Source: an uncultured Oscillospiraceae bacterium
GTDB taxonomy: Bacteria > Bacillota > Clostridia > Oscillospirales > Oscillospiraceae
Assembly (NCBI GenBank): GCA_947628315.1
Contig: CANQZJ010000013.1
Coordinates: forward strand, 1 to 46,237
DNA length: 46,237 bases
Direction of reading: 5' to 3'
Shown here: positions 24,401-43,670 of the stretch, piece after piece
Layout of the letters: every line of letters starts with the position of its first letter
Numbering within the stretch: position 1 is the first letter of the stretch
The notes under the pieces: generated by a model
Told to the model about the DNA's origin: nothing
The model's input: the letters and a program-made list of their open reading frames with translations, nothing else
Databases searched by the model: none
Translations under genes and position numbers: made by a program

Positions 24401-24525
24401 CGCATTTGCAGCCATAACGGCATAACTTGACGGTCGCAGAGTTTGCCCCTCTGCGCCATCTGGCCCGATTTCCGCCGGTCCGGCCCGGTTTGCCGTCAGG
24501 ATCGCTGAACGCTGACTAAAAAACC

Positions 24526-25842: not shown

Positions 25843-25871
25843 TTGCACCCGGTTGACCCAAATGCTATACT
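25843..25871 (+). promoter_or_regulatory. Promoter of the giant surface protein gene
   Basis: TTGCAC and TATACT are separated by 17 bases. Transcription should start near 25878, giving a leader of about 138 bases. The intergenic region 25656-26015 holds this promoter, the inverted repeat at 25734-25762 and the structured leader, but no gene. Confidence 0.7.
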
Positions 25872-25877
25872 TTACAT

Positions 25878-26000
25878 AAAATTAGGCTTGGGTAATTGGA
25901 CGCAGAGGGGCGAACTCTGCGACCATACCGCCCATGAGGCTTTCCCCCTTTCCGGAGGCGCTGTGCGCCGCCCGGATCGGAACCGTGAACTACCATTTGT
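25878..26000 (+). promoter_or_regulatory. Structured 5' leader with possible pseudoknot
   Basis: Hairpin 1 is a perfect 7-bp stem (25901-25907 with 25915-25921) with loop GGGCGAA. Loop bases GGGCG (25908-25912) are complementary to CGCCC at 25929-25933, allowing an H-type pseudoknot. Hairpin 2 pairs TCCGG and GGCGC with GCGCC and CCGGA (25951-25976). A ribosome binding site AGGAG follows at 26002-26006. It does not match the c-di-GMP-I or -II, fluoride, ZTP or preQ1 patterns I know. It may be a riboswitch-like or protein-binding leader (inference). Confidence 0.45.
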
Positions 26001-26015: not shown

Positions 26016-29000
26016 ATGAGATCTGTCAAAAAGAATTCCCTGCCGCGCAGGCTTGCGGCTGCCCTGCTGTGCGCCTGCCTGGTGCTCTCGCTGTGCGAGG
26101 GGCTGCACCTGCTCCTCCCCACCGCCCACGCGGCGTCCACAGGGGGACCCACCGCCGGCGTCGATCGGCAGGCCGACCCCAGCACCATGGATACCTATCA
26201 ACAGATGCTGGATTTCTCCACAAACACCCGCAACGCCGGGCGTCTGTGGTCGGATAAGTCCGTGTTCGCCCTGGGCTATAAAGATGCGGGCGGCAGAAGC
26301 GGGCTGTGGGCCGAGGGCAACGACACGACCAACGGCGTTCTGTCTCTGACGAAAGACCTTGACGGCGTGGAGGGCACGGTCTCGCTCAACGACGACTTCC
26401 TGCACGTCTATTCCGCGCTGGGCTCCAGCCTGGAGGTCATCGGCGTGCCCCCCGTCCGGGCCGTCATCGTGTTCGATAACTCCGGGTCCATGTATAACAG
26501 CAACTCCACCGGAAAAGTAACGACGAATGACGGAACCGGCGAAAAAACCGAGTATAAGTCCGACGAAGATCTGTGGAAGCTGCAGCGGATCGCCCTGACC
26601 GTCGAGGCCATCGACCGGGCCATCGACACGCTGATGGAGGCCAGCGTTTACAATGAGGTCTCCGTGGTGCTGTTCGGCGACGGGGCAAACAACGATATCA
26701 ATGAAACCAACAGTACCCACCCCTACCACGGCAACAGCACCGCCGTGACCATCCTGCCCATGAAGCACTACGAGCCTAAGAAAGATGGTGGGGAGTATAC
26801 CCCCTACCTCACCGCCGGGTGGAAAGGTACTGGAGAAATCAATGGAGAAACCCCTCTGCATACTGGCGCTAGTCCTTCTGCTGATGACACGACAAATAAC
26901 CCGGGCATCAAACAAAAGGCGTATAGCGGCGGCTGGGTGTTCGTAAACAACGAGATCTGCCAGTTGAAACAATCCAACAAAGATGGTAGCGCAAACCCCG
27001 GAGACAATCCCGGGCACGACTGGTATAAAGCCGAGAGCTGGAGCGGCTGGAACAACTGCAACGATAATACATACACCGCCTACCAGAACGGCACCACCGA
27101 CATCCAGGCCGGTTACTATGTGGGCATGCAGGAGTTGCTGAACGCCGAGAAGACCGAGACGGTGGGCAACCAGACCTATCAGTGCGTCCCCTCCCTGGTG
27201 ATGCTGACCGACGGCCAGGCCACCGATATGCTGACGGGGAACTATATCAAGCCGGACTTTGATGAAAAGAGCGGCGAGCCCACAGCCCGGGGCTTTGTCA
27301 ACGACACCGGAAACAGACTGCGGTCCTTCACCGGGGCCACCGGAAAAAACGCTAAAGAAATAGGCAATTTCTGGGATATGTTCGTCGAGATGGAAAAGGG
27401 GAGTTCTGGGAAGTATCAGTCCGCCGCATGGTACGAGGACATAACAGCCGCTGAAAAGAAATTGACGACTCCCACGGGCACGATGCTGGATCATATGAAA
27501 GCAGTGGCGAGGACCTACAGCGACTCCGTCGCCTCCATGCTGCTGGGCACCCTGATGACCACCGCCTACTACAAGGAGGCGGTGAAGCGCGCCTATAACG
27601 TGGCGGACCACTGGAACATCTACACCATCTCGGTGGATATGATAGACCTCGAAACCATGCCGGGCACTGCGGCAGCGGACGCAAAAAGCGCTTCTTCAAA
27701 TCCGGAGCCAAAAAACGAACTGCCCGATAAGTGGGAGTATGGCATCAACAGCAACGCCCCCACCATGGACCCCGCGGATTACTTCTATAAAGATGGGAAG
27801 GTAGATATCGGCTGGCTGGTCGACAAGGGCTACATTGATGGGTTGGACAAAGGCCAACTGGCAGCTGCGATAGCCGCCGACGCCGAAAAAGATGCCGATG
27901 TTACGGGAAAGACCGTCTATCCCGACTGGTCCGTGGGTGAGATGCTCATCCAGGGCATCGTGACGGCGGCGCAGGAGCTGAATAGATGGCAGAGCGGGAG
28001 CCACAAGATTGAGTTAAACTACCAGTCCTGGAACTCGGCCAAGGGGATACTAAAACGTGAAACAAAGAAAGTAGACGGTAAGGATCAAGATGTCCTGGAT
28101 GAGGATGAGAATCGGCAGCCGGCTGATTCGGACAAGTGGATTAAAGGCACGTACATAAACCCCTGGGGTCATAGCGACGGCTATCTCCTCAAAGAGCGGC
28201 AGGATGTCAAATTCCCGGCTCTTAGTGCGAGTGATGAGACAGACACAAACCCCTACGGCCTGAACGTAGCTGACGTGATGAAGAACATCGCGTACAACAA
28301 TTTTGCCTACTATCCCTCGACCGCAAATGCCTCGGCGCAGGACCTGGCCGGCACCTTCGTAGAGATCATCGACTCCATCACGGAGCACCTGTTCGCCCCC
28401 GTAGGCGGCACCAACGACCTGGGCGTGGGCGACGCCGTCACCTACGTGGACCCGGTGGGCAAGTACATGGACGTGAAGGACGTCAAGAACCTGACCCTGT
28501 TCGGCAAGCTGTATGATCTCACCAAGACCGCCGTGTACGACTACCAGTGGAACCACCAGTACCAGGAGAACAAGGGCTATGCTACGCAACCCCTCGACGA
28601 GGGCTGGTACAAGGGCGAGCCCACCGACAACAGCAACGACGGCGTGGACTACGCAGGAGCCCCTGATAAGCTTCCCAGCGGTTGTGACAGCGCTGCGGAT
28701 GCCTGGGCCAACGGCTGGGTCTACCGCGTCAGCTATTCCAACGCGTCGAAATACGTGCCCACGCTGAATGATATTAATAATGAAATCCCAAATCCCGAGC
28801 AAAGCACCGCGCTTGACAAGATGCGGCACACCACCTACACCTTCTACCGAATCGATAAAGGCCAGGAAGAGCGCGACGCGCTCCACATGAACCCCGCCTA
28901 CCTTTCCGCGGGAGATAAGGAAGGAGATCTGGAGCTCAAAGCGGGTGACCCCGGCGTGTACGCCCTGTCCGACCTGCGCATCTGGGTGGAGGACAGCGGC

Positions 29001-32000
29001 GATTACAGCGCCAGCCTGGGCAGTTCCAAGACCGACACCAACTATGACGAGGCCCTGTGGATCAACATCCCGGTGAACATGCTGCCCCTGCGCACCATGT
29101 CCATCAACCTGGGCAAGACGGAGGAAGACGCCGACCATTGGGCGTACAAAACCAACCTGACCGCTGAGGCCGGCGACGCCTATAAAGCCAGCTTCCCCCT
29201 GCGTGTGTTCTACACCGTAGGCGTCAGCGACGAGGTGCTGGAGAACAGCAACCGCATCAACATCGCCGGGGGCATCAGCCCGGAGTACATCCTGCGCAAC
29301 AAGATCACCACGCCGGCGGCGGCAGGCGCCCGGGGCATCGACCAGGGGAACCTGGAATTTTTCTCCAACTGGTACAATCCCCTGAACCGCTACGGCGACT
29401 ACGCCACCACCAGCACCGACTACACCTTCGGCGACCCGGTGACCTCCTTTGCGCCCAGCACCGCCAACCGGTACTATATGTTTGAGAAGGCCCTGCCGCT
29501 GTACAGCACGGCCTATCAATTCACGGGCGGCAAGTGGCAAAAAGTGGAAATGCACGACGGGATCTCCGCCAACTTCGGCGGCAGGCTGCTGGAAGAGGTA
29601 AAGAAGGATAAAATCGGCACCAGCAGCACTGAGAAGGCCGTCACCAGCGAACAGATCACAGCCGTGCTGGAAACGAAAGAGAAACCCGTGGAGGGCGATA
29701 TCGTCCTGCTGGAAGCGGACCGCCTGACCAATGTGGACAGACCCGCTGACGGCTCGGGACTCGTCGATCCGTTCCCCTCCAGCGACTATTTCTACCTGGC
29801 CATCGAGTACTACAACCTGGACGGTGAGAACGCCACCTGGACGCAGTTTGTCATCACCCGGAAGAGCAGCGAGTTCGGCTCGGCCTACGAGTCGGCCCAC
29901 ATCGCCAACGGCGACATGCTGTGCTGGCACGACCTGAGCGGCAAGTATCCCGACTACCCGTATCTGTCCTACACTGATACCAAGGACAGCAGCCGTGGCC
30001 GGAACTCCATCGGCTGGCCCCTGGATTCGAGCGGCTATTATGTGGGCTACAAGAAGGGCGAGAAGGAAGTACCCAGTGAGGATAAGTATAAGGCTGCAAT
30101 CGAAGGGTTGACGGGCTACGACGAAAGCTGGACTACACAGCACGAAAATGTCCTGAGCGGCGGCAATTGGGTGCTTTGCGCCAAGCCCGGCGGGCTGCGC
30201 GTGGGCGATCTGGCCCAGAACGTCAAGAACAAGGGCGGCACCTATAATCAAGGCGGCGATATTCAAAAGTACTACGGCGAAGAGCAGTACAAGCAGGAGA
30301 CCGAGGACAAGGGCCTGAAGTGGGGCTTCTTTACGAACAACGTCACCCGCACCGCCAACAACTACTACATGCCCACCATCAGCGCGGCGTCCAGGACCGA
30401 GGAGGAGGCCGGCGGCACGGCCGGGACCGGGGACAACGGCATCATCGTGAACGTGTACCTGGGCAACAACGGCCGGCTGTGGGTGAACGACACCACCCTG
30501 CTGGTGACGAAGCTGATCGATCCCCCGCTGGACCAGGAGATCGACGAGAACGACGCCAAGGAGGAGTTCAACTACCAGGTCTACATCCAGGGCATGGAGG
30601 GCAAACAGAGCGCCGTGGTGATCCACTGGAACCAGGCCACGCAGAGCTGGCAGCGTCAGTTCCACTATATCGATCTGGAGCTGGACAGCCAGCTGTTCCT
30701 CCAGACCCAGGACGGCCAGAAGGCCGTGGTGGACGGGGACGGCAAGCGCGTGGTCCCCAATCCTGATGGCACGGGGTACGTCTATGCCGATAGCAACGCC
30801 CCGTGTACCGACCCTTACTATGTCTACATCGGCAAAAACCGGTCGGGAAACGCGGAAGGTTTCGGCGCTTCCGAAGCGGGCTTCCGCGTCTACCACAACG
30901 ATGCGGTGGACACGAACGGTACGGTTGATAAGGCAGACGTTATAAGCGAAGGTACAGGCGACAACGAGGGCACGTTCTATGCCGCCACGGTGTGGCTGGT
31001 GTCCGTGGATGACTATACCAGCAAATGGCAGAACGCCGAAGGAGGGCCTCTTGATCCGGTCAACGCAGGAAGCTTTGACGCCACAAACTACGGTGGAATA
31101 GTGAAAACCAACTTTGAGCTGCTGACCATCGATCCCAACGTCAGCGGCGCCGACACCACCGAGATCGCCATTACCTCGGACTACCTCACCAGCAGCGCCT
31201 ACTGGACGAAGGATGTGTATTTCGGCTATAAGGATGTTAAGTTTAATGAGTCGGGCGCCATTGACGAGAGCAGCAGCAAAAAGCTGACCGAGGGCGACCT
31301 CTACGATCAGATCATCCCCAGCGGCGACCGCCCGGATTATTTCGATAATGATCCGGCTGGCAGAAATAATGCGGACAAAGGAACCATCGCGAAGAACACC
31401 GCCGAGTTCACCCTGAAGCACGGCGAGGCGCTGCTGTTCAGCGGCATCCCCTCCGCCTCCGTGTACCGGGTCACCGAGAAGCTGACCGACCGGCAGCTGG
31501 ACGAGGGCTATTCCCTGAAAGAAGTGAGCCACGTCCAGCAGGTGGGCTCCGACAGCACCTACCGCCCCGGCGCCCAGAGCATCCCCGTCTATTATAACGA
31601 GGGCACGACCTACGGCGAGTACGGCGGCGACGTGTATCCGAATGCCTACGATAGCTACAAGACCGAAAAGGGCCTGACGTGGGCGGTGGATCAGGACGGA
31701 ACGGCGAATAAGGACGACTATCTCCATTACGAGCCGTTCCACCACACCAACGCCGTTGTGTGGGAAGCCTATTCCACCATGGACGCGGCCGCGCAAGGCG
31801 ACAACCACCACCAGCCGGCCGGCTTCCTTGCGGCTGGAAAGAACGGGACGTCGCCGTTCTATCTGTGGAACGGCACAACGAGCGAGAACACAGAGCAGAC
31901 ACATCGCGTCCAGGACAACCCCAACTGCAAGTCCCTGGAGGATGGCGGCTGCGACGAGGACATCGGCGGCGGCCAGGTCCGGCACTACTTCTTCAAAGGC

Positions 32001-35000
32001 GGCGAACTTCTTGACGCGCACTACCAGGGCGAGGGTTCCGGCTATATCCGGAACATAGGCCGCTACATCACCAGCCCCACGGTCCACTTCGGCGTGAAGG
32101 ACGAGCAGCAGAAGGACGCGGAAACGTCCATGCCGGATATGAAGTCCAACACCGATTACACCGGCGTGTACTCCGTGTTCGGCAACACCGGCACCTTTGA
32201 GGAGTCCGCCAACTTCGTCAACACCAAGAAGGCCGACAAGCGGGAGACCGCCATCAACGGCGACGAGGACAGGATCAGCGGCAACGGCACCGGCACCCAG
32301 CCCGGCGTCCAGGCGGGCGACACCATCACCTACACGATCGACTGGTCCAACGATACCGGCAGCAAGGCCCGGGTGGTCATCATCGACCCGCTGGACGCCG
32401 GCGTGGAGTTCGTCGAAGCCACCACCGAAGTGGGAGAGTATGAGTACTTGGGAGAGTATAAGTACTTCGGAGGCATAAACGAGGCGAACGCGTACCTTGC
32501 CACGATCTACACCGATCCCAAAAAACCGGTCACGGTGGACTCCGGCCATGTGGTGATCTGGGATCTGGGCGAACGGGCCCCCGACGAACACGGCAGCGTG
32601 ACCCTCACCGTGAAGGTGAAGGAGAACGCGGCGGAGTGGTGGGACTACGACGGCGACGGCGTGGCCGACAAGCCCGTTTCCGCCGATCCTGACCATCTGG
32701 TGCGGGACCGTGCCACCGTCCGGGTGGCGGACAACGCCTATTACACCAACACCGTGGTCAACCCCGTGGGCAAACCGGACAAGGACGAGACCAAGATCGA
32801 CCGCGCGGCTGGCGGCGACCCCGAAACTCTGACCGATGGCAACTTTGTCCCCAAGGATGGGGCCGAGAACACCGAGGTCGGCCCGCTAGTGTACGTGGGT
32901 GACAAGATCACCTACAAGATCACCTGGCGGAACTATAAGACCGAGCCGGCGCTGGTCACCATCACCGACCCGCTGGATGCCAACGTGAAGATCATCAGCG
33001 CGGAGTTTGACCCCACGAAGACCCTGGACAGCAAGGGAGAACCGCTCAATACCTCCACCGGCTACACGGGCGCTCAGAAGGCGGATTTGACGAACCTTGT
33101 GCCCACCACCGGCGACGCCAAGCCCGCGGGTACGGATTCTACCGTGCAAGTCAATGTTGACAGCACCGAGCCTGAGAGCAAGCGTCCCGTCATCCAGTAC
33201 ACCAACGGGGAGGACTACCAGGTCGTCTGGAACCTGGGCTTCCAGCCCGCCGGGGCCTCCGGCGTGGTGACCCTGACGGTGGAGGTGCTGAGCACCGCCG
33301 CCGCGGCGGGCTATGTGGACAACACCGCCTTTGTGAAGATCAACGGCGACGCGGTGCAGCAGACCAAGACCGTGGAGAACCCCACCCCCGAGGTGGAGAA
33401 GGAGGAGACCAACCCCGGCAAGGGAGAACGCCTCACGGTGGGCCAGCAGGTGGACTATGAGATCTCCTGGCGCAACTACCAGTCTGCCGCCGCCAAGGTG
33501 ACGGTCACCGACGTCCTGGATCCCGGCGTGGACTTCGAAAACGCCGCTTTTGGCGAAGTGACGCTCACTAAGGACGACGTTGGGCCGAAAGAGGGCACCG
33601 TCACTATCGGCGAGCAGACGGTCAACGTCAAGATCGAGTATACCCCGCACCAGATCACCTGGACGCTGGAGGATGTCCCCGCCAATTACGAAGGGAAGGT
33701 GACCTTCTCCGTCGCGGTGAACTCGAAAGCCTTTGAAAAGCACACCTATGACGGAAACGGCGCGTTCAAGACAGACGAGCCCGGCGACGAGACTGACGAC
33801 AAGATCCTGAACCAGGGCGGCGTCCGGATCGACGACGACGCCAAGGTTCTCACCGAGATCATCCCCAACCCCGTGCTCAATACCGGCGCTCTCAAGATCT
33901 CCAAGAAGGTCGAAGGCACCGGCGGGGACAAGACTGCCTATTTCGCCTTCCGCATCGAGCTGGAGGGCGCGTTGGAGACCTTCGGCCCGCTGGACGGGGC
34001 GTACCCCTACGAAGGCAAAGTGGAGGACAAGGACAATGACAGCCTCGCTCTCGACGCTGAGGGCAACAAAATTATTACCTTCACGGGCGGCCAGGCCAGA
34101 GTGTATTTGAGGGATGGCGAGTCCATCACCATCAAGGGCCTGCCCGAGGGCGTCGACTACACCGTCACCGAGGAGAACCCCGGGGAACACACTGTGACGG
34201 TGAAGGTGACCCCCAACGAGGGTAACGAAGTAAATGAAGAGAAACACTCTGTCACCGGCAAGATCGAGGCGGACGAAACCAAAACCGTCGCTGTAGAGTT
34301 CACCAACAAAAAGGATCTGGCGCCGGTCGATCTGACCATCAAAAAGGCCGTCCTCGGCGAGGAAGATCCCAAGACGGAATTTACATTTACTCTTGAACTC
34401 ACGCCGCCGAAGGACGTTACGTTGGCGGGGTCTTATCCTTATACCCTGACCGGCCCCGGCGCGGAGGAGATCGAGAGGGGCACAGTCGAGGTCGACGCGG
34501 ACGGCAATGTGAAGATCAAGGACGGCGGCGACATCACGCTCAAGCACAACCAGTCCATCACCATCACCGGCCTGCCCAACGGGACGACGTATACCGTTAC
34601 CGAGACGGCGGATTCGCGGAGCGGTTATGACACCACCGTAGACGGCGCGGAGGGGTACTCTACGTCCGGCACGCTGACCAACGAGGGCGGCAATGTGACG
34701 GTGGTCTCCTTCGAGAACACCAAGCAGCATGAAACCAAGCCCGGCTTTGGCGACGTGCAGATCACCAAGAAGGTCACCGGCGTGAACCTGTCCACCAAGG
34801 ACGAGTTTACCTTCCACGTGGAGTTGGAATTCCCGGAGGGGACAGATCCTATCCCCGAGGTCAAGTACACCGGCACGGTGAGCGACACCATTGAAAACGG
34901 CAAGGGCGACATCACCCTGCCCGCCGGCGGAACGGTTCTGTTCAATGACCTGCCGGAGGGGACTGTCGTCACCGTGACCGAGACGGGTCTGGACGGCGAT

Positions 35001-38000
35001 AAGTACAAAATGACGGCGGAAGGCGGGGAAACGGTAGAGAACGGCGTGAAGGTTACCGTGACCGAGGGCGCCACCGCCGCCGTGAACATCGTGTTCACCA
35101 ACGAGCGGAAGACCGGCGGCCTGACCGTGACCAAGACGGTCTCCGGCGAGGGCGCGGACACCGAGCGGCACTGGAACTTCACCGTGACCCTGGAGGATAC
35201 CAGCATCAACGGCAAATTCGGCGACATGACCTTTAAAGACGGTGTGGCCACCTTCCAGCTGAACGGCAAGGATCCCAAGACCACCACCGCTACCGGCCTG
35301 CCCGCGGGGATCAAGTACACCGTGACCGAGGACGACTACACGGCGGAGGGCTACACCACTACGCCGGCTGACGGCGCCACCGGGATCATCCCGGCGGGCG
35401 ACAAGGCCAGCGAGGAGTTCTTCAACTACAAGGGTAAGCCGGAAACGGGCGGCCTGAAGGTCACCAAGACGGTCACCGGCAACGCCGACGATCCCAACAA
35501 GGACTGGAGCTTCACCGTGGCCTTCACCGCCCCGGATGAGGACTCGGTGAATTGGGAAAAGATCGCGGAACTGAAGTTCAGCGTCCGTGAATCCACGGAG
35601 CACGTCGTCACGTGGGACGGCAATATGCTGACGTTCACCCTGAAGCACGGCGAGTCTGTGGAGATCACCAACCTGCCCGTGAATACCAGCTATACCGTGA
35701 CCGAGGACTACACGGGAGGCTACTTTACCGCCACCGTTACCGACAGCGACGACCCCTTTAACGACGGCAAGGGTGCCATTGGCACGGCGGGTGAAATGGA
35801 CAACGTCGAGTTTGTGAACGACTTCGGCGAGGTGCTTGAGCCCAAGATCGGCTGCCTGACTGTCTCCAAGATTGTCTCCAAGGCGGTCGAGGGCGGCGAC
35901 GAGGCCGTGGGGACGGACTTCCGCTTCAAGGTGGAGTTCACCGCCCCGGCCGGGGTGTCGGTCAACTGGAGCGGCGTGGAACTGGTCTTCAGCGACGAAA
36001 CCGCGAACCACAACTACGGTTGGAAGGGCAATGAGCTGACCTTCACCCTCAGGGACGGCGAGTCCGTGACGATCTCCGGCCTGCCTCTGGGCACGAAGTA
36101 CACCGTCACGGAGGAGTCCGGCGAGTACAGCACCACGGCGACTGTCACCGTCGGTACGGTCACGAAGGAAGGCACTGCAACGGAAGGCGGCTACACCGTC
36201 TCCGGCGACCTCGGCAGCACGGGTGAGGCGAAGGTGGAATACACCAACACCATGCCCACGGTCGGGGAGGCCACCGTCAATGTGGAACTCACCAAGACGT
36301 TGAAGGGCGGCACGCTGGAGGCCGGCAAGTTCACCTTCGTGGTGACGCCCGACGCCGGCAATGACAAGGACTCCGACCCGCTGCACGGCGAACCTCTGGA
36401 GGTCAAAAACGGAACACCCACAGCCGAGGGAATCGCCACGGTGGAGCTCTTCGGCGCGGAACGTGCCTTTACACAGGCGGGCACCTACAAGTACACCGTG
36501 CGGGAGAAGGCCGACGGCCAGCCGGGCATTTCCTACGACGACCGGGTCTATACGGTCACTGTTGTCGTAACAAAGGAGGAGTACAACAGCGACACGAACA
36601 CCTGGCCGCTGAAAGCGGAGGCGACCGTGACCAAAGACGGCGCGGAGCCGGGTGCGGGCGGTCTCGCCTTCACCAACGAGTATAAGACCGGCGAGATCAG
36701 CGTCCCCCTGCAGGCGCGGAAGGTGCTGACGGGCGCCACGCTGAGGGCGGGGCAGTTCAGCTTTACCCTGACCCCGGGCGAGTCCACCGTCGATGGCGTG
36801 ACGGGCACTTCCCCCATGCCGGACGGCACGTCCAGCCCACTCACCGTGACCAATGACGGCAGCAACTGGGTGAACTTCGGCTCCGTGAAATTCACCAGGG
36901 CGGGGATCTACTATTACACCATTCAGGAGGTCAAGCCGGAGGGCGCCCCGGGCTACGTCACGTATGACGACACGGAGTACCATGTGACGGTGACCGTGAC
37001 CAGAGAGGGCGACGCGCTCCAGGCGACGGTCACATATAAGGACGGCACGGACGGCGTGGCAAGCACGAACGTCCCCACCTTCACCAACACTGCCAACACC
37101 GGCAGCCTGACCGTGAAAAAGACGGTCACTGGCCTCGTCGGTGATCGCAGCGAGAACTGGATGTTTACGGTGGTGTTCACCGACCCGGAGGGGGAGACGG
37201 TGGATTGGAAAAACACCGCAAAGCTGACGTTCAGCGACAAAACCGAGGAAGGACACAGCGTCAGTTGGGCCAGCAATACGCTCACCTTCACCCTGAAGGA
37301 CGGCGAGTCTGTGACGATCAGCGAGCTGCCCGTGGACACAGGGTACACGGTGACCGAGCCAGATGCCAACAAGGGCGGCTACACCACCACGCCCGAGACA
37401 GGCGTTGCCGACGGCACGATCGAGGCGGAAAAAACCGCCACTGTGGAATTTATCAACAACAAAGACACGGCGGAGACCGGTGATCTCAAGGTGACCAAGA
37501 CGGTCAGCGGCGCCGTCACGGACAAAGCGTTCCACTTCACCGTGACCTTCAGCGCCCCGGTGGATCAGAAAATGGTAACGCTCACGTTCAGCCCCAAGGA
37601 TGAAACCGCAGACCCCGAGGATGAAACCGCAGATTACGGCGTCGAGTGGACGGATGACCATACGCTGACGTTCGACCTGAAGAACGGCCAGACCATGACC
37701 GCAAGCGGCCTGCCGGCGGGCATCACCTACCATGTGACCGAGGACAAATACGAGGACTACACCACTGAGATCCACGGCGATGAAGAGGGCTTCATCCCCA
37801 CGAATGCCGCCGCTGAGCTGCAGTACATCAACCGCGGCAAGGGGCAGAGTCCCAAGACACGCAGCCTGACGGTCTCCAAGACGGTCACCGGCGAGGGGGA
37901 CACGGAGAAAGACTGGACTTTCACCGTGGTGTTCACCGCCCCGGAGGAGCAGATGATCGACCATAGCAGCGTAAAGCTGGACTTCAGTGGCGAGACCAAA

Positions 38001-41000
38001 GACCACAAAAATAAATGGACGGACGACCATACGCTGACGTTCACCCTGAGGCACAACGAGTCTGTGGAGATCACCGGTCTGCCCGACGGCACAGGGTATA
38101 CGGTGACCGAGACAGAGGCCAATCAGGACGGCTACATCACCACACCCACCAGCGCCAGCGGCACCATCTCTGAAACCGACGCGGCCACGGCGGTCTTTAC
38201 CAACGATAAGCACACTACGCTGCCGGACAAGGGCAATCTGACCGTGAGCAAGACGGTCACCGGCAAGAACGGGGACACGACCAAGGAGTTCCACTTCAAG
38301 GTGACCATTTACACGGACGAAACCCGCGAAACTGTGGATGAAAGCTTCAACGGCACCTACGGTCACATGACCTTTAAGGACGGCGTGGCGGAGTTCGACC
38401 TGAAGCACGGCGAGAGCCTGACCGCCACCGATCTGCCCAAGGACCTCACCTACACGGTGACCGAGGGCGACTACACGGGAGAGGGCTACATCACCACGCC
38501 CGCCGGCAACGAGGGGACTATCCCCGGCGGCGATACGGTTACGGCTGCCTTTAGCAACGCAAAGCCGGGCAAGGGGAACCTGATCGTCACCAAGATGGTG
38601 TCCGGCGCGGGCGATACGGCCAAGGACTTCACCTTTACCGTGACCTTCACCCCCCCGGCCGATGCACCGGCGGACTGGCAAAAAGGTGTGACGCTCACAA
38701 AGTATAACGCCGACGGAACCACTGTCACGGAGAACCCCACCATCACGGGCAACAGCCTGACGTTCACCCTGAAGCACAACGAGTCTGTGGAGATCGAAGG
38801 CCTGCCCGAGAAGACAGGGTACACCGTGACCGAGACCGATGCCAACGCGGACGGCTACACCACCACGGTCACCGGCAGCGGCACAGTGGAGGACGGCAGC
38901 ATATCCGGCAAAATCGAGGCGGAAAAAGCCGCCAGCGCGTCCTTTGAAAACAGCAAAGACAAGCCGGAGCCGAAGGTCGGCAGCCTCACCGTGACCAAGA
39001 CGGTCGCCGGCCCGGGCGGGGACAAGGCCAGGCCGTTCCACTTCAAGGTGACGCTGAGCAAACCTCTCAACGGCAAGTACGGCGATATGATCTTCACCAA
39101 CGGTGAGGCAGAGATTACCCTGAAGCACGGCGAGACCATGACCGCCGAGGGTCTGCCCGCGGACACAGAGTACACGGTGACCGAGTTTGAGGCCAACAAG
39201 GATCACTACAGCACCACGTCCGAGGGCACCAGCGGCACCATCGCCAGTGACGAGGAGGCCAAAGCGGAGTTCACCAACACCAGGAAGACGGGCAGCCTGT
39301 CCGTGACCAAGACGGTCACCGGCGAGGAAAGCTCGGACACGGGCTTCACCTTTACCGTGGAGTTCACCGTCCCGGCGGGGTCGGAGATGGGTGATTGGAA
39401 GAATGCCGTGGAGGTGACGTTCAGCGGCGATGGAATCGAGGAAACGCCTAGTGCCACATGGACGGACGGCAATCATCTGACGTTCACCCTGAAGCACGGC
39501 CAGACCATGACCGCCGAGAATCTGCCCGCGGGCGTCACCTACACGGTGACCGAGACTGAGGCCGACGAGGACGACTACACCACCACCTCCTCCGGCGAAA
39601 CCGGAACCATCCCCGACGTCGGTAAAGCTGAGGCTGTCTTTAACAACCACAAGGATCCCACGGCAGATTCGAACAAGGGAGACCTGATCGTGACCAAGGA
39701 GGTCACCGGCGAGGACAACTCGACCACGGCGTTCAACTTCACCGTGGTGTTTACCGTCCCGGACGGTACGGCGGAAAGCTGGCAAGATGATGTGACGATC
39801 ACAAAGTATGACGCCGACGGAACCGATGTCACGGATGGCCTCACCATCGAGGGCAACGAGCTGGAGTTCACCCTGAAACACGGCCAACGGTTGGAAGTCA
39901 CCGGCCTGCCCAAGGACATCACCTACAAGGTGACCGAGGAAGCCTGCGAGGGCTACACCACCACGCCCGAGGAAGGCGTTGCCGACGGCACGATCGTGGC
40001 GGGAAAAACCGCCAGCGCGGAGTTCGTCAACGACAAGGGAGAGGAGTCGCCCCCCGGGGACGAGGGTACCGGCAGCCTGTCCGTGACCAAGACGGTCGAC
40101 GGCACCGCCGGAAGCACGACCCAGGAGTTCACCTTCACCGTGACGTTGAGCGACACGACCGTCACTGGCACGCACGGTGATATGGAGTTCACCAACGGCG
40201 TGGCCACATTCACCCTGAAGCACGGCCAGACTATGACCGCCGATAATCTGCCCGCGGACGTCACTTACGAGGTGACCGAGGCCGGCGTGGACGGCTACAC
40301 CACCGGCTCCACCGGTTCCACCGGGACGATCCCGGACGGCGGCACCGCCGAGGCGAAGTTCACCAACATCAATGATTCGTCCGAATACGGGGAACTGACC
40401 GTGCACAAGACGGTCTCCGGCGACGCGGGGGATGCGAAGTTCCACTTCAAGGTGACGCTGACCGGCGCCGCTGCCGACGGCACCCCGGCCGGCTCCATCA
40501 CCGGCCAGTATGGCGACATGCACTTTACAAATGGCGTAGCGGAGTTCGACCTGACGGCCGGCAATAGCCTGACCGCCACCGGCCTGCCCAAGGGCATCGG
40601 CTATACCGTGGAAGAGATGCCGGTGGAAGGCTTTACCGTCGAAAGTCCCGAAGATGGCTCCGCCAGTGGGATCATCCCCGGCGGCAGCGAGGCCAAGGCA
40701 GATTTTGTCAACAAACCCGTCACCACGGAAGACCCGAAGCCCGGCAGCCTCAAGGTGACCAAGACGGTCACCGGCGAGGGCGGCGAACAGGATAAGGACT
40801 TCACCTTCAGCGTGGAGTTCACCGCCCCGGAGGGGAAGACGATCGACCAAAGCAGCGTGAAGCTGACGTTCAGCGCCCGCGACTCTGAAAAACACAAGGT
40901 CGCGTGGGAGGACGGCAAACTGACGTTCACCCTCAGGCACAACGAGGATGTGACGATCACCGGTCTGCCCATCGGCACAGAGTACACGGTGACCGAGGAC

Positions 41001-42260
41001 GACTACAAGGCTGACGACTATGTCACCTCCTACACCGGCGACACCGGAACCATCCCGAAGGACGCCGCGGTCGAGGCCCGCTTTGTCAACCACAAGATCC
41101 TCCCCGGCGATCTGTCCGTCACCAAGACGGTCACCGGCGAGGGCGGAGACACGACCAGGGAGTTCAACTTCACCGTGACGCTGAGCGACACCAGCATCAA
41201 CGGCACCTATGGCGGCATGACCTTCGTGAACGGCGTGGCCAAGTTCACCCTGAAGCATGGGGAGAACAAGACCGCCAGCGGCCTGCCTGCCGGCCTCCAG
41301 TACACGGTGACCGAGGAAGACTGCAAGGGCTACACCACCACGGTCACCGGCACCGGCACAGTGGGCGAGGATGGCAGCATATCCGGCAAGATCCAGAAAG
41401 CTACCCCGGAGCGGGCTGACTTCACCAACAAAAAGGATCCGCAGGGCAGCCTGACCGTGACCAAGACGGTCACCGGCGATGGTGGAGACAAGAACAAAGA
41501 CTTCCACTTCACCGTGACCTTCGATGCCCCGGCCGGTACGGCGGAGGGCTGGCAAGATGATGTGACGATCACAAAGCACAACGCCGACGGAACCGCTGTC
41601 GAGGAGAGCCTCTCCATCACGGGCAACGAGCTGACGTTCACCCTGCACGACGGCCAGAATGTGACCGTCACCGGCCTGCCGGCGGATGTCACCTACACGG
41701 TGACGGAGACCGAGGCCAACCAGAACGGCTACACCACCACTGTCACCGATAGCGACGTCCCCAAAAACGACGGTAAGGGAGCCATCGAGGCGGACAAGAC
41801 GGACGAGGTGAAATTCGTCAACGACAAGCCCAACGACCCGCCTCCGCCTCCGCCGCCGGGGCCCAGCGAGACGCCGGGGCCCAGTGAGACGCCCGGGCCC
41901 AGTGAGACGCCCGGGCCCAGTGAGACGCCCGGGCCCAGCGAGACCCCCGGGCCCAGCGAGACCCCCGGGCCCAGCGAGACGCCCGGACCCAGTGAGACGC
42001 CCGGGCCCAGCGAGACACCCGGGCCCAGCGAGACACCCGGGCCCAGCGAGACACCCGGGCCCAACGAGACGCCGGGGCCTGGCGAGACACCCCAGCCCAC
42101 CACCCCGTCGGACGACACGCCCAAGACCGGCGACGACAGCCATATGGGGCTGTGGATCGTGCTGATGGTCATCGGCATCGTCGGAGCAGCCGCGGCGCTC
42201 TGGCCGACGCCGTGGCAGAACGGGCACGGCGGCAATAAGGGCCGGCGCATCAAGAAATAG
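26016..42260 (+). CDS. Giant cell-wall-anchored vWA adhesin (5,414 residues)
   Basis: One uninterrupted frame. A signal peptide (about 1-40, ending PTAHAA) is followed by a von Willebrand A domain with MIDAS DNSGS from Asp154 and the later MLTDGQATD near 396. A long unassigned N-terminal region runs to about 2090. Three DUF11-like domains follow (about 2095-2255, 2290-2460, 2470-2620), then a stalk of about 19 Cna-B/DUF7601-like units and two FctA-like pilin domains, each with Y-T-V-T-E-type strands. Proline-rich GPSETP repeats precede the sorting signal TPKTG at 5368-5372, a membrane helix and the tail KGRRIKK. The tip would bind host or bacterial ligands on a very long stalk. A class B sortase follows 75 bases on. 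AGGAG precedes the ATG. Which ligand is bound is unknown. Confidence 0.93.
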   Translation: MRSVKKNSLPRRLAAALLCACLVLSLCEGLHLLLPTAHAASTGGPTAGVDRQADPSTMDTYQQMLDFSTNTRNAGRLWSDKSVFALGYKDAGGRSGLWAEGNDTTNGVLSLTKDLDGVEGTVSLNDDFLHVYSALGSSLEVIGVPPVRAVIVFDNSGSMYNSNSTGKVTTNDGTGEKTEYKSDEDLWKLQRIALTVEAIDRAIDTLMEASVYNEVSVVLFGDGANNDINETNSTHPYHGNSTAVTILPMKHYEPKKDGGEYTPYLTAGWKGTGEINGETPLHTGASPSADDTTNNPGIKQKAYSGGWVFVNNEICQLKQSNKDGSANPGDNPGHDWYKAESWSGWNNCNDNTYTAYQNGTTDIQAGYYVGMQELLNAEKTETVGNQTYQCVPSLVMLTDGQATDMLTGNYIKPDFDEKSGEPTARGFVNDTGNRLRSFTGATGKNAKEIGNFWDMFVEMEKGSSGKYQSAAWYEDITAAEKKLTTPTGTMLDHMKAVARTYSDSVASMLLGTLMTTAYYKEAVKRAYNVADHWNIYTISVDMIDLETMPGTAAADAKSASSNPEPKNELPDKWEYGINSNAPTMDPADYFYKDGKVDIGWLVDKGYIDGLDKGQLAAAIAADAEKDADVTGKTVYPDWSVGEMLIQGIVTAAQELNRWQSGSHKIELNYQSWNSAKGILKRETKKVDGKDQDVLDEDENRQPADSDKWIKGTYINPWGHSDGYLLKERQDVKFPALSASDETDTNPYGLNVADVMKNIAYNNFAYYPSTANASAQDLAGTFVEIIDSITEHLFAPVGGTNDLGVGDAVTYVDPVGKYMDVKDVKNLTLFGKLYDLTKTAVYDYQWNHQYQENKGYATQPLDEGWYKGEPTDNSNDGVDYAGAPDKLPSGCDSAADAWANGWVYRVSYSNASKYVPTLNDINNEIPNPEQSTALDKMRHTTYTFYRIDKGQEERDALHMNPAYLSAGDKEGDLELKAGDPGVYALSDLRIWVEDSGDYSASLGSSKTDTNYDEALWINIPVNMLPLRTMSINLGKTEEDADHWAYKTNLTAEAGDAYKASFPLRVFYTVGVSDEVLENSNRINIAGGISPEYILRNKITTPAAAGARGIDQGNLEFFSNWYNPLNRYGDYATTSTDYTFGDPVTSFAPSTANRYYMFEKALPLYSTAYQFTGGKWQKVEMHDGISANFGGRLLEEVKKDKIGTSSTEKAVTSEQITAVLETKEKPVEGDIVLLEADRLTNVDRPADGSGLVDPFPSSDYFYLAIEYYNLDGENATWTQFVITRKSSEFGSAYESAHIANGDMLCWHDLSGKYPDYPYLSYTDTKDSSRGRNSIGWPLDSSGYYVGYKKGEKEVPSEDKYKAAIEGLTGYDESWTTQHENVLSGGNWVLCAKPGGLRVGDLAQNVKNKGGTYNQGGDIQKYYGEEQYKQETEDKGLKWGFFTNNVTRTANNYYMPTISAASRTEEEAGGTAGTGDNGIIVNVYLGNNGRLWVNDTTLLVTKLIDPPLDQEIDENDAKEEFNYQVYIQGMEGKQSAVVIHWNQATQSWQRQFHYIDLELDSQLFLQTQDGQKAVVDGDGKRVVPNPDGTGYVYADSNAPCTDPYYVYIGKNRSGNAEGFGASEAGFRVYHNDAVDTNGTVDKADVISEGTGDNEGTFYAATVWLVSVDDYTSKWQNAEGGPLDPVNAGSFDATNYGGIVKTNFELLTIDPNVSGADTTEIAITSDYLTSSAYWTKDVYFGYKDVKFNESGAIDESSSKKLTEGDLYDQIIPSGDRPDYFDNDPAGRNNADKGTIAKNTAEFTLKHGEALLFSGIPSASVYRVTEKLTDRQLDEGYSLKEVSHVQQVGSDSTYRPGAQSIPVYYNEGTTYGEYGGDVYPNAYDSYKTEKGLTWAVDQDGTANKDDYLHYEPFHHTNAVVWEAYSTMDAAAQGDNHHQPAGFLAAGKNGTSPFYLWNGTTSENTEQTHRVQDNPNCKSLEDGGCDEDIGGGQVRHYFFKGGELLDAHYQGEGSGYIRNIGRYITSPTVHFGVKDEQQKDAETSMPDMKSNTDYTGVYSVFGNTGTFEESANFVNTKKADKRETAINGDEDRISGNGTGTQPGVQAGDTITYTIDWSNDTGSKARVVIIDPLDAGVEFVEATTEVGEYEYLGEYKYFGGINEANAYLATIYTDPKKPVTVDSGHVVIWDLGERAPDEHGSVTLTVKVKENAAEWWDYDGDGVADKPVSADPDHLVRDRATVRVADNAYYTNTVVNPVGKPDKDETKIDRAAGGDPETLTDGNFVPKDGAENTEVGPLVYVGDKITYKITWRNYKTEPALVTITDPLDANVKIISAEFDPTKTLDSKGEPLNTSTGYTGAQKADLTNLVPTTGDAKPAGTDSTVQVNVDSTEPESKRPVIQYTNGEDYQVVWNLGFQPAGASGVVTLTVEVLSTAAAAGYVDNTAFVKINGDAVQQTKTVENPTPEVEKEETNPGKGERLTVGQQVDYEISWRNYQSAAAKVTVTDVLDPGVDFENAAFGEVTLTKDDVGPKEGTVTIGEQTVNVKIEYTPHQITWTLEDVPANYEGKVTFSVAVNSKAFEKHTYDGNGAFKTDEPGDETDDKILNQGGVRIDDDAKVLTEIIPNPVLNTGALKISKKVEGTGGDKTAYFAFRIELEGALETFGPLDGAYPYEGKVEDKDNDSLALDAEGNKIITFTGGQARVYLRDGESITIKGLPEGVDYTVTEENPGEHTVTVKVTPNEGNEVNEEKHSVTGKIEADETKTVAVEFTNKKDLAPVDLTIKKAVLGEEDPKTEFTFTLELTPPKDVTLAGSYPYTLTGPGAEEIERGTVEVDADGNVKIKDGGDITLKHNQSITITGLPNGTTYTVTETADSRSGYDTTVDGAEGYSTSGTLTNEGGNVTVVSFENTKQHETKPGFGDVQITKKVTGVNLSTKDEFTFHVELEFPEGTDPIPEVKYTGTVSDTIENGKGDITLPAGGTVLFNDLPEGTVVTVTETGLDGDKYKMTAEGGETVENGVKVTVTEGATAAVNIVFTNERKTGGLTVTKTVSGEGADTERHWNFTVTLEDTSINGKFGDMTFKDGVATFQLNGKDPKTTTATGLPAGIKYTVTEDDYTAEGYTTTPADGATGIIPAGDKASEEFFNYKGKPETGGLKVTKTVTGNADDPNKDWSFTVAFTAPDEDSVNWEKIAELKFSVRESTEHVVTWDGNMLTFTLKHGESVEITNLPVNTSYTVTEDYTGGYFTATVTDSDDPFNDGKGAIGTAGEMDNVEFVNDFGEVLEPKIGCLTVSKIVSKAVEGGDEAVGTDFRFKVEFTAPAGVSVNWSGVELVFSDETANHNYGWKGNELTFTLRDGESVTISGLPLGTKYTVTEESGEYSTTATVTVGTVTKEGTATEGGYTVSGDLGSTGEAKVEYTNTMPTVGEATVNVELTKTLKGGTLEAGKFTFVVTPDAGNDKDSDPLHGEPLEVKNGTPTAEGIATVELFGAERAFTQAGTYKYTVREKADGQPGISYDDRVYTVTVVVTKEEYNSDTNTWPLKAEATVTKDGAEPGAGGLAFTNEYKTGEISVPLQARKVLTGATLRAGQFSFTLTPGESTVDGVTGTSPMPDGTSSPLTVTNDGSNWVNFGSVKFTRAGIYYYTIQEVKPEGAPGYVTYDDTEYHVTVTVTREGDALQATVTYKDGTDGVASTNVPTFTNTANTGSLTVKKTVTGLVGDRSENWMFTVVFTDPEGETVDWKNTAKLTFSDKTEEGHSVSWASNTLTFTLKDGESVTISELPVDTGYTVTEPDANKGGYTTTPETGVADGTIEAEKTATVEFINNKDTAETGDLKVTKTVSGAVTDKAFHFTVTFSAPVDQKMVTLTFSPKDETADPEDETADYGVEWTDDHTLTFDLKNGQTMTASGLPAGITYHVTEDKYEDYTTEIHGDEEGFIPTNAAAELQYINRGKGQSPKTRSLTVSKTVTGEGDTEKDWTFTVVFTAPEEQMIDHSSVKLDFSGETKDHKNKWTDDHTLTFTLRHNESVEITGLPDGTGYTVTETEANQDGYITTPTSASGTISETDAATAVFTNDKHTTLPDKGNLTVSKTVTGKNGDTTKEFHFKVTIYTDETRETVDESFNGTYGHMTFKDGVAEFDLKHGESLTATDLPKDLTYTVTEGDYTGEGYITTPAGNEGTIPGGDTVTAAFSNAKPGKGNLIVTKMVSGAGDTAKDFTFTVTFTPPADAPADWQKGVTLTKYNADGTTVTENPTITGNSLTFTLKHNESVEIEGLPEKTGYTVTETDANADGYTTTVTGSGTVEDGSISGKIEAEKAASASFENSKDKPEPKVGSLTVTKTVAGPGGDKARPFHFKVTLSKPLNGKYGDMIFTNGEAEITLKHGETMTAEGLPADTEYTVTEFEANKDHYSTTSEGTSGTIASDEEAKAEFTNTRKTGSLSVTKTVTGEESSDTGFTFTVEFTVPAGSEMGDWKNAVEVTFSGDGIEETPSATWTDGNHLTFTLKHGQTMTAENLPAGVTYTVTETEADEDDYTTTSSGETGTIPDVGKAEAVFNNHKDPTADSNKGDLIVTKEVTGEDNSTTAFNFTVVFTVPDGTAESWQDDVTITKYDADGTDVTDGLTIEGNELEFTLKHGQRLEVTGLPKDITYKVTEEACEGYTTTPEEGVADGTIVAGKTASAEFVNDKGEESPPGDEGTGSLSVTKTVDGTAGSTTQEFTFTVTLSDTTVTGTHGDMEFTNGVATFTLKHGQTMTADNLPADVTYEVTEAGVDGYTTGSTGSTGTIPDGGTAEAKFTNINDSSEYGELTVHKTVSGDAGDAKFHFKVTLTGAAADGTPAGSITGQYGDMHFTNGVAEFDLTAGNSLTATGLPKGIGYTVEEMPVEGFTVESPEDGSASGIIPGGSEAKADFVNKPVTTEDPKPGSLKVTKTVTGEGGEQDKDFTFSVEFTAPEGKTIDQSSVKLTFSARDSEKHKVAWEDGKLTFTLRHNEDVTITGLPIGTEYTVTEDDYKADDYVTSYTGDTGTIPKDAAVEARFVNHKILPGDLSVTKTVTGEGGDTTREFNFTVTLSDTSINGTYGGMTFVNGVAKFTLKHGENKTASGLPAGLQYTVTEEDCKGYTTTVTGTGTVGEDGSISGKIQKATPERADFTNKKDPQGSLTVTKTVTGDGGDKNKDFHFTVTFDAPAGTAEGWQDDVTITKHNADGTAVEESLSITGNELTFTLHDGQNVTVTGLPADVTYTVTETEANQNGYTTTVTDSDVPKNDGKGAIEADKTDEVKFVNDKPNDPPPPPPPGPSETPGPSETPGPSETPGPSETPGPSETPGPSETPGPSETPGPSETPGPSETPGPSETPGPSETPGPNETPGPGETPQPTTPSDDTPKTGDDSHMGLWIVLMVIGIVGAAAALWPTPWQNGHGGNKGRRIKK
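33880..41820 (+). repeat. Stalk repeats of the adhesin (about 19 Cna-B/DUF7601-like units, two FctA-like)
   Basis: Units of about 290-430 bases each begin with a strand of the type G-x-L-x-V-T-K-T-V-T-G and contain a late Y-T-V-T-E. Starts are visible near 33889, 34327, 34750, 35115, 35450, 35850, 37100, 37482, 37861, 38232, 38574, 38980, 39290, 39680, 40072, 40390, 40743, 41106 and 41442. FctA-like units start near 36270 and 36690. Several units share near-identical DNA cassettes, for example around 38700, 39796 and 41565, and around 38865 and 41340. Confidence 0.85.
41859..42092 (+). repeat. Thirteen 18-bp tandem repeats encoding GPSETP
   Basis: Eleven GPSETP hexapeptides are followed by GPNETP and GPGETP, in frame with the adhesin. 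Third-base differences occur between copies. The stretch forms a wall-spanning proline-rich linker before the sorting signal. Confidence 0.95.
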
Positions 42261-42272
42261 CAGACGCGAAAA

Positions 42273-42304
42273 GGCGGCGGACAGGCATACGCCTGTCCGC
42301 CGCC
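42273..42304 (+). other. Strong intercistronic hairpin between adhesin and sortase
   Basis: A perfect 14-bp GC-rich stem (42273-42286 with 42291-42304) has loop ATAC and no T run after it. It is 12 bases beyond the adhesin stop and 30 before the sortase ATG. It may protect the 16-kb message or reduce read-through into the sortase gene. Confidence 0.7.
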
Positions 42305-42334
42305 CTGCACAGAAAAGCCCGGAGGAGGCGGAGA

Positions 42335-43150
42335 ATGAACCGGAAAACAGGCAAAAGACCGCCTCTGCGGATCATCATCGGCGTGTGCTGCCTCCTGTTG
42401 GCCTGCGTATCCGCGTATATGGTCATCTCCCAGCTGATCCGGGAAAAGCGGGACGCGGACGCCTTCGAGGCACTGATCGACCAGATCGAACAGGATGAAC
42501 CGACGGCCACCCCCGGCCCCGCCGTCTCCGCCGTCCCCGCCGGCAGCCCCCCGCCCCAGGCGGAGCCGACCCCGTCTGGCTTCCACAAATACGATGTGCT
42601 CTATAAGCAGAACCACGACCTGTTCGGCTGGGTCGGCATCGACGGAACAGCGCTCAACTACCCGGTCATGCACACGCCGGACGACCCGGAGCACTACCTC
42701 CGCCGCGCCTTTGACGGGTCGTACTCCGTCAGCGGCGTCCCCTTTCTGGACGGGGACTGCTATACCGGCTGCGGCAACTATATCGTCTACGGCCACCACA
42801 TGATGAACGGCACCATGTTCACCGCGATCACGGACTACGCCGACGAGTCCTTCTGGAAGGCGCACTCCGTCATCCGTTTCGACACGCTGGACGAGGCGGG
42901 CGAATACGAGGTGCTGGCGGCGTTTTACGCCAAGGTCTACAAGGTGAACGAGCAGGGCGTCTTTCGCTATTACAACTATACCGACCTGACGGACGAGGCG
43001 GTCTTTGACGAATATCTGGATCATGTCCGCGCGGCGGCCCTCTACGACACCGGCGTCACGGCGGAATACGGGGATCAGCTCCTCACCCTCTCCACATGCA
43101 GCTACTACACTGCGGACGGCAGGTTCGTGGTGGTGGCGAGGAAAGTTTAA
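42335..43150 (+). CDS. srtB: Class B sortase
   Basis: A 271-residue transpeptidase that should cut the adhesin at its TPKTG signal and link it to peptidoglycan. An N-terminal membrane anchor (about 11-32) and a proline-rich linker (about 55-81) precede a class B catalytic domain opening with KYDVLYKQNHDLFGWV. The active site is complete: His154 in NYIVYGHHM, Cys255 in LLTLSTCSY and Arg263 in DGRFVVVARK. GGAGGAGGCGGAG precedes the ATG. It lies 75 bases after the adhesin gene on the same strand, behind a strong hairpin. Class B enzymes often recognise NPxTN or, in Clostridioides, (S/P)PxTG, so a TPKTG substrate is plausible. Confidence 0.93.
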   Translation: MNRKTGKRPPLRIIIGVCCLLLACVSAYMVISQLIREKRDADAFEALIDQIEQDEPTATPGPAVSAVPAGSPPPQAEPTPSGFHKYDVLYKQNHDLFGWVGIDGTALNYPVMHTPDDPEHYLRRAFDGSYSVSGVPFLDGDCYTGCGNYIVYGHHMMNGTMFTAITDYADESFWKAHSVIRFDTLDEAGEYEVLAAFYAKVYKVNEQGVFRYYNYTDLTDEAVFDEYLDHVRAAALYDTGVTAEYGDQLLTLSTCSYYTADGRFVVVARKV

Positions 43151-43306: not shown

Positions 43307-43464
43307 GCCTTGCTCTGAAATTCCTCCCGCATCCGGTACCCGCAAACCCCGAACCCAGGCTCCTGCCCCATGCTCTCTCGGGGTATCATCATAAGCGTAA
43401 AATGCAGCGGCGGATATACAGCTTGATAGAGTATCACAAAACTGCTGAGATGGTATAATGGCCG

Positions 43465-43500
43465 CCGCTCCCACATTTTCGTGGGAGCGGTATTTTATTT
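43465..43500 (+). terminator. Plus-strand terminator downstream of the sortase
   Basis: CCGCTCCCAC and GTGGGAGCGG form a 10-bp stem with loop ATTTTC, followed by TATTTTATTTTT. A TATAAT lies directly upstream at 43453-43458, without a good -35. Confidence 0.7.
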
Positions 43501-43526
43501 TTCAAAGAAGTGATGTCCTATGGAAC

Positions 43527-43550
43527 CATTTTCGTGACCTCACGAAAATG
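43527..43550. repeat. Palindrome with 11-bp arms
   Basis: CATTTTCGTGA and TCACGAAAATG flank a 2-base centre. Its ATTTTCGTG core is also in the loop and stem of the terminator just before it. It could be a protein-binding site. Confidence 0.6.
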
Positions 43551-43670
43551 ATCAGACACCGCAATCACACTTGTTTCGCAGGACTCAATTGCGCATAAAA
43601 ATAATTAAAATGTAAGCGGAAAGGGAGAAAATTGCAATCCCATTTGAGCCGTTGCATCCCGAGATAAGCG

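Follow-up and report, generated by a model that had tools for sequence, protein, structure and literature searches.

Invertible promoters before sortase-type surface proteins (PMC2654543), an invertible segment that encloses its own recombinase gene (PMC5903667), and sortases or their substrates as mobile cargo (PMC6814731, PMC3158075) are already in print. Here, we describe a locus in which such features are combined. In a 46,237-nucleotide stretch of DNA from an uncultured Oscillospiraceae bacterium (hereafter, the window), the gene for a giant surface adhesin is followed by a sortase gene and preceded by a tyrosine recombinase gene lying between inverted sites, close to a remnant of a tRNA-Thr gene. 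The combination of a proposed switch with a sortase-plus-substrate cargo appears to be new, as does this family of switches; a limited literature search turned up no paper that we recognized as describing such switches or their transport by a mobilizable element. The window is the entire contig C13 of its genome (G000), and the contig end truncates the element on its right. The genome is fragmented, with 2.69 Mb in 198 contigs, and is 76.8% complete.

Each of the described systems resembles the locus in part. The LPXTG protein SZO08560 of Streptococcus zooepidemicus has an invertible promoter, for which five reads show the flip and reverse transcription quantitative PCR compares the directions (PMC2654543). 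There, too, inverted repeats and a recombinase gene lie beside a sortase-type surface protein; however, the segment is ~115 bp, the recombinase is outside it, the repeat sequence is another, and the excerpted text describes no mobile-element carriage (PMC2654543). In Clostridioides difficile, cwpV and RecV likewise concern a large phase-variable surface protein of a gut clostridium under DNA inversion, but the excerpt describes a 195-bp segment without a promoter, a terminator model, and a recombinase identified separately (PMC2784873). The Hin flagellar switch and the 844-bp fimbrial segment of Providencia stuartii both have the recombinase inside the invertible segment, as here; the Providencia segment is shorter than ours, and its repeats are 14 bp (PMC5903667). 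The likeness is one of layout. As mobile cargo, a sortase with its substrates is found on 023_CTnT of C. difficile RT023 (PMC6814731), and Cna-B proteins are found on C. difficile conjugative transposons (PMC3158075). In the excerpts, these cases differ in being conjugative transposons, 023_CTnT has serine recombinases, and the word "inversion" is absent from the main text of PMC6814731. An inverton survey links one inverton group with MobC and relaxase genes (PMC11892184).

The recombinase and its inverted sites

Judging from sequence comparisons, an integrative mobilizable element in tRNA-Thr quite likely carries the adhesin and sortase genes, and a self-contained DNA-inversion switch would govern their expression. 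The recombinase gene is enclosed by 24-nucleotide inverted sites that delimit a segment of ~1.5 kb (Table 1), so that a site-specific recombinase and a pair of inverted sites, as expected of an inversion switch, are both present. Hin is a serine recombinase, and in a Hin-type switch its gene lies inside the segment. The gene is inside the segment here as well, but it encodes an enzyme of the tyrosine recombinase family (PF00589).

A search of 42 congeneric genomes gave homologues of the recombinase in 5 (E 1e-60). At E 1e-90, 27 of 394 genomes from the order had a homologue, as did 5 of 391 from the class, the source genome being counted each time; the tallies for order and class are lower bounds, with few first-look candidates scored per genome. 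An inverted pair scoring at least 15 was present at 27 of 35 homologous loci. When the flanks were letter-shuffled 20 times per locus, the top score was 10 to 13, once 15, and once 0 (a short flank). With duplicates and short flanks removed, 23 of 29 homologues reached a score of 15, as against none of 22 tyrosine recombinases from outside the family in the same data set (highest score 13), with two 43% relatives, first printed in an "other" group of 24, counted as family.

The sites share a layout in which the outer arm is conserved (TTTCGCAGAGT or near), a spacer of ~7 nucleotides varies between loci, and the inner arm is looser. Within a pair, the spacers match exactly at 27 of 28 loci (three near copies), in inverted orientation, and there are 24 different spacers. 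Spacers in this orientation would permit inversion and not excision, while an inserted element would keep a direct spacer. One locus fetched later (L264) has a pair that scores 17, with an identical spacer and one arm mismatch. When only the arms were used as a pattern in the 42 congeneric genomes, paired sites occurred solely at three such recombinases, and single sites were present in G008, G025, and G011.

The preliminary description had taken the recombinase for the integrase of the element. For the 371-amino acid protein to integrate and excise the element at the tRNA remnant, the inverted sites would have to be incidental or regulatory, and we regard this as improbable. The gene does end ~390 bp from the att remnant, and the arm adjoining the remnant recurs in other elements, but a second contig of the same genome (C50) bears two other integrases beside a MobL relaxase truncated by the contig start, on the other side of an intact tRNA-Thr. 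These two, which recur in G030 and on contig C102, are probably the element's own integrases. The best PHROG match is likewise an integrase, and the closest solved structures are chains called "Int protein" (6en0, 6emy), which we take to be Tn1549 Int; however, related elements with a single integrase at the MobL end (G029:C6, G029:C30, and G004) have a different integrase, the inverted sites are retained by homologues from other genomes, of which many lie beside surface-gene operons, and the inverted spacers lend no support to excision. With its inverted sites, outward promoter (see below), and homologues, the protein looks like a phase-switch DNA invertase and is probably not the element's integrase. 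A scan of IMG/VR with the recombinase returned only two relatives, at 25% identity.

Other loci touch on this switch. At the start of contig G029:C26 (L183:1-76), there is a 92%-identical recombinase with inverted sites; the first 53 bp of that contig resemble, by eye, the leader of our adhesin, and the gene beyond is unassembled. L250, L251, and L252 hold more distant (43%) relatives of the switch, near a gene whose start is presumably that of an Erm(B)-type rRNA methylase. At adhesin loci of G029, G060, and G065, an XerC-like 278-amino acid recombinase has a short inverted repeat behind it, the arms being 222-227 bp apart (L079:8556-8815, L171:16125-16385, L175:9363-9620). All three are in one orientation. 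This is a possible second switch, to be taken as a lead only, and its layout is closer to that of cwpV, as excerpted, than the 371-amino acid recombinase switch is.

Promoter-like sites and orientation

Within positions 24140-26030, the only promoter-like site is aimed at the adhesin, and it gives the segment a promoter toward the neighboring gene by consensus match only. The same holds across much of the family. Between the 5' end of the recombinase gene and the adjoining site, outward promoters matching at least 10 of 12 consensus positions were present at 15 of 25 loci, versus 1.6 expected from shuffles, while inward promoters were present at 1 of 25, versus 1.2 expected.

Both orientations occur among relatives, compared with one genome per species. 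In G064, a 77% homologue of the recombinase, with sites of the same sequence, is oriented oppositely relative to the 5,974-amino acid adhesin of that genome. The adhesins of L238 and L241 are 70% identical over 603 amino acids, and their switches are opposite. Judged by the promoter, the window and L238 were assembled in the ON state and G064, L241, L232, and L233 in the OFF state; the neighbors at the five loci other than the window are adhesins of the same type by homology, either directly or past one TetR-like gene.

From this arrangement, we infer that the recombinase would recombine the two sites (24432-24455 with 25901-25924) and flip the ~1.5-kb segment together with its own gene and promoter. 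In the assembled orientation, the promoter would read into the adhesin gene ~134 bp on (ON), and once inverted, it would read away (OFF). The downstream sortase would then fix the secreted adhesin to the wall, leaving the vWA-like head displayed on a long DUF7601/DUF5979 stalk, and a clone would hold a mixture of fiber-bearing and bare cells.

Even less credible than the integrase interpretation is that the recombinase and its two sites form a miniature tyrosine transposon, which landed either way upstream of surface genes and regulates nothing. The varied neighbors of the recombinase family would suit such an element, as would G064, where the recombinase unit sits, insertion-like by eye, between a leader common to G029/G060 and the adhesin. 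An integrated unit would be expected to have a direct spacer and conserved inner ends, whereas we found conserved outer arms and inverted spacers, and the excess of outward promoters also argues against it.

Probable carriage on a mobilizable element

That the element is integrated at a tRNA, as had been proposed, was supported. The 45-nucleotide tRNA-Thr(GGT) remnant and the adjoining terminator (24061-24152) repeat the 3' end and terminator of the intact tRNA-Thr(GGT) gene on C50, with 97.8% identity over 92 bp. ARAGORN found no complete tRNA in the window, and an Rfam scan of it gave zero matches. Both the final 77 bp of C13 and the initial 200 bp of C50 have 97% copies elsewhere in the genome, and such repeats can explain the assembly break between the two contigs. 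C13 and C50 are probably the two ends of one element. Conjugative transposons of the Tn916/Tn1549 type have a conjugation module and insert outside tRNA genes. The boundary here is a tRNA-Thr remnant, in an element known in part only, and the best solved relatives of the recombinase are the Int chains mentioned above. Beyond the sortase, the preliminary description had placed a maintenance module; an excisionase-like helix-turn-helix gene and two further helix-turn-helix genes are present, for which a role in maintenance is hypothetical.

The closest relative, G029:C6, holds an integrative mobilizable element on one contig, with a tyrosine integrase, a relaxase, and direct-repeat ends. A 160-bp direct repeat (97.5%) at 601-760 and 30067-30226 bounds a unit of ~29.5 kb that contains an integrase, MobL, helix-turn-helix genes, a 90%-identical excisionase, other genes, a sortase (82% identical), an adhesin of 5,336 amino acids (head 74% identical), and the XerC-like gene. 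We noticed no full conjugation set in its gene list, although no search with conjugation families was made. By eye, the repeat holds a tRNA-Met-like 3' end, and on another G029 contig, an integrase (98% identical) lies beside an intact tRNA-Met. G007:C4, by contrast with our cargo-bearing element, has the backbone (94.8% over 43392-43700) and then, by eye, a G029-type element arm, without adhesin, sortase, or switch. Together, the bounded G029 unit and the cargo-free G007 backbone uphold the view that the two genes are cargo of a tRNA-associated element.

Relatives of the cassette also lie near other tRNAs, as the preliminary description had suggested looking for, including the tRNA-Met 3' end of G029. 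G060 has a sortase (74%) and a 4,356-amino acid repeat protein with a different head, with a tRNA-Pro 1.6 kb away and a broken-looking integrase between; in G062, the sortase is ~23 kb from an integrase adjoining the same tRNA-Pro. In G064, a tRNA 3' remnant (by eye, 78% over 50 bp) is separated by ~1 kb from the switch and by 2.5 kb from the adhesin. A lone class-B-like sortase beside a tRNA-Thr-like 3' remnant and another integrase (L028:10004-11995) was considered as the same cassette at another tRNA-Thr and rejected, as the sortase stands alone with no adhesin upstream.

Adhesin and sortase at a chromosomal place without integrase or tRNA had been named as the finding that would count against element carriage. 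G011 and G025 come part of the way: their related adhesins share one chromosomal place with no integrase or tRNA seen, which speaks against exclusive carriage on elements, but in G025 no sortase follows the adhesin, and the G011 contig ends inside the adhesin gene. Least likely of all is that the two genes are ordinary chromosomal surface genes beside a degenerate island by chance, since, although the G011/G025 adhesins have no integrase, tRNA, or sortase seen beside them and our contig ends before the far end of the element, the G029 direct repeats surround integrase, MobL, excisionase, sortase, and adhesin, the G007 backbone exists without this cargo, and strong adhesin-head matches are patchy (4 of 60 genomes, our own included). 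Carriage of the adhesin and sortase on a mobilizable element is well supported by these comparisons.

The element family has further members and accessory genes. A second copy in the source genome (G000:C77, L120) has, by eye, restriction-modification and toxin-antitoxin-like genes in place of the adhesin. In G000, G007, G023, and G030 at least, the excisionase gene has beside it a gene for a DUF6076 protein, a function-unknown family in Pfam. In G029:C6, a 1,020-amino acid accessory protein encoded beside the excisionase (L078:6674-9736) matches Pfam RdRP, the RNA-dependent RNA polymerase family (E 5e-12), and contig-cut copies, 90-96% identical, are present in three related elements (L163, L165, and L168). 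PADLOC, run on four proteins including this RdRP-type protein, gave no match.

The adhesin and its sortase

A 16.2-kb surface protein gene and a sortase gene had been reported between an integrase and a maintenance module, and both open reading frames were found (26016-42260 and 42335-43150). The adhesin has a head of ~1,200 residues, two FctA stretches, and a stalk with 19 DUF7601 and 18 DUF5979 stretches, the same repeats being matched by both models. It ends in a PSETPG spacer followed by the sorting signal TPKTGDDSHMGLW. The giant adhesin of Mobiluncus mulieris, reportedly of 7,651 residues with cross-links in a very long Ig-like stalk, shares this feature of a very long stalk, and the brief description of it mentions neither a switch nor a mobile element.

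The naming of the protein as a vWA adhesin is tentative. Pfam calls no vWA in the 5,414 residues, and a Pfam VWA search of the source genome gave no match, but the MIDAS-like D-x-SGSM and the LTDG residues are invariant across five aligned adhesin heads, and VWA_2 matches four of four homologous heads tested (E 0.0073 to 4.7e-6), one above the cut-off and three below. A PDB profile search with the heads gave only one weak match (E 0.31), and an IMG/VR scan with the adhesin head found no relative. Among 60 genomes searched with the head, nine match at E 0.001, of which four are strong, our own being included in both counts. On the opposite strand, a 3,113-codon open frame (32886-42227) runs antisense to the stalk and is probably a shadow of its codon use.

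The sortase gene starts 74 bp downstream of the adhesin. That it belongs to class B, as had been stated, is suggested by the Pfam Sortase match (2e-12) and by the best PDB matches, which are solved sortase B chains (best E 9.4e-27), but with NCBIfam TIGR03064 it scores 130.4 bits, under the cut-off of 153.75. Of the eight closest relatives of the sortase, six (L019 to L024) lie directly behind a gene whose protein ends with the same extended signal, P[KT]TGD[DN]SH; of the other two, L025 has another type of gene upstream, and L026 has no gene called there. A sortase dedicated to the adjoining adhesin, as had been proposed, would fit because the upstream proteins in these six share the signal, which agrees with dedication, short of proof.

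Table 1. Positions of the proposed switch, cargo, and element features in the window
Feature	Position	Strand	Basis or remark
tRNA-Thr intrinsic terminator, hairpin arms 24071-24086 and 24091-24106	24061..24107	-	within 92-bp repeat common to C50
tRNA-Thr(GGT) 45-nucleotide 3' remnant, attR-like element boundary	24108..24152	-	intact gene on C50
Element arm, att remnant to switch	24153..24431	.	stretches of 119-211 bp, 80-90% identical, in G029:C26, G007:C4, and own C77
Inverted site distal to adhesin, GGTCGCAGAG-TTTGCCC-CTCTGCG	24432..24455	+
Tyrosine recombinase, 371 amino acids, proposed DNA invertase inside invertible segment	24540..25655	-	PF00589
Outward promoter-like site TTGACC-18-TAAAAT, into adhesin (proposed ON)	25853..25882	+	consensus match
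Inverted site proximal to adhesin	25901..25924	-	23/24 bases match distal site; mismatch in spacer
Surface adhesin, 5,414 amino acids	26016..42260	+	open reading frame list, Pfam; signal-like N terminus, vWA-like head, DUF11, FctA, DUF5979/DUF7601 stalk, sortase signal
vWA-like region with MIDAS-type DNSGSM and LTDG motifs	26457..27635	+	limits approximate, by eye
18-bp tandem repeat, 13.3 copies, coding PSETPG wall spacer	41854..42092	+
Class-B-like sortase, 271 amino acids	42335..43150	+	Pfam Sortase, PDB sortase B chains
Element backbone start	43392..43700	.	94.8% shared with G007:C4
DUF6076 protein, accessory gene of element family	43671..44840	-	Pfam
Excisionase-like helix-turn-helix protein (HTH_17 / excise)	44934..45143	+	88-94% identical in closest related elements
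Helix-turn-helix-like protein	45140..45544	+	HTH_20 below cut-off
HTH_36 protein	45561..45989	+
Gene start cut by contig end	46195..46237	+	matching stretch on own C77 leads into mobilization-type gene

Neighbors of the recombinase family

Next to recombinases of the family, which occur in both orientations, are giant vWA-type adhesins and SipW-TasA-like operons. With respect to the operons, the recombinase is directed away in L239, L243, L245, L246, and L247 and toward them in L236 and L242. Pfam supports these operons through Peptidase_S26 in L236, L242, and L245; Peptidase_M73 is matched in L242 and L245 and, slightly under the cut-off, in L239. L243, L246, and L247 are assigned by similarity to the Pfam-supported loci. 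An outward promoter of 10/12 was found at just one of the seven, L243. Surface-type neighbors are also present at L231 (SLH) and L234 (Listeria-Bacteroides repeats). In G030:C10, a c-di-GMP-I riboswitch (82 bits; L184:4625-4710) lies in the invertible segment behind the outward promoter, beside a Cna_B surface protein; Rfam, run on 37 sources other than the window, found this one riboswitch, two tRNAs, one signal recognition particle RNA, and one group II intron. At L235, L237, L240, and L248 to L253, the neighbors have no clear surface role by eye, with no database search made of them.

We lean toward a broader picture in which portable inversion cassettes of ~1.5 kb, each encoding a tyrosine recombinase and bearing TTTCGCAGAGT-type sites and a promoter that faces outward, are widespread in one order of gut Clostridia. 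They would have been recruited repeatedly before unrelated fiber systems (giant vWA adhesins, SipW-TasA-like operons, and Cna_B and SLH proteins), with at least one version traveling on a mobilizable element, so that fiber, anchor, and bet-hedging switch would move together.

Discussion

Several observations weigh against a switchable adhesin carried as mobile cargo. No inverted pair was found at 8 of 35 homologues; in five, the flank is cut by the contig end (L200, L202, L205, L210, and L226), but L181, L182, and L222 have full flanks. The window itself is the sole exception among the 28 spacer pairs, with one of seven bases differing, and the copy in this stretch may invert poorly or slowly. 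Apart from L264, the spacer matches stem from a search biased toward similar pairs, and the arms-only set is small, with identical spacers in two of three pairs and one difference in our own. An outward promoter of at least 10/12 is absent at 10 of 25 loci, and at a looser 9/12, outward promoters are present at 22 of 27 loci and inward ones at 8 of 27. Opposite orientations were seen between species only and could reflect independent insertions. At ~10 loci, genes point away on both sides, making the ON state ambiguous; if these are indeed switches, the two states may serve different genes there. In L241, the promoter side holds a pilin-like gene. Finally, the att repeat (C13) and MobL (C50) are on contigs that are not joined.

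The preliminary description had proposed that transfer would bring a recipient a complete, self-anchoring fiber. The part about adhesin and sortase as cargo stands, but the permanent fiber would give way to an on/off adhesin, because the adjacent "integrase" looks like a phase-switch invertase.

Surface fibers help set the adhesion of a gut bacterium, but they are costly and exposed to phage and host immunity. If a fiber, its anchoring enzyme, and an autonomous ON/OFF switch do travel as a package, a recipient would gain a heritable bet-hedging trait in one step. A gene annotated as an "integrase" beside surface genes may be an invertase. The sequence rule that emerges (an outer arm of TTTCGCAGAGT, matched spacers of ~7 nucleotides, and a recombinase between) could be used to locate phase-variable fibers in gut genomes and to check them in existing metagenome reads.

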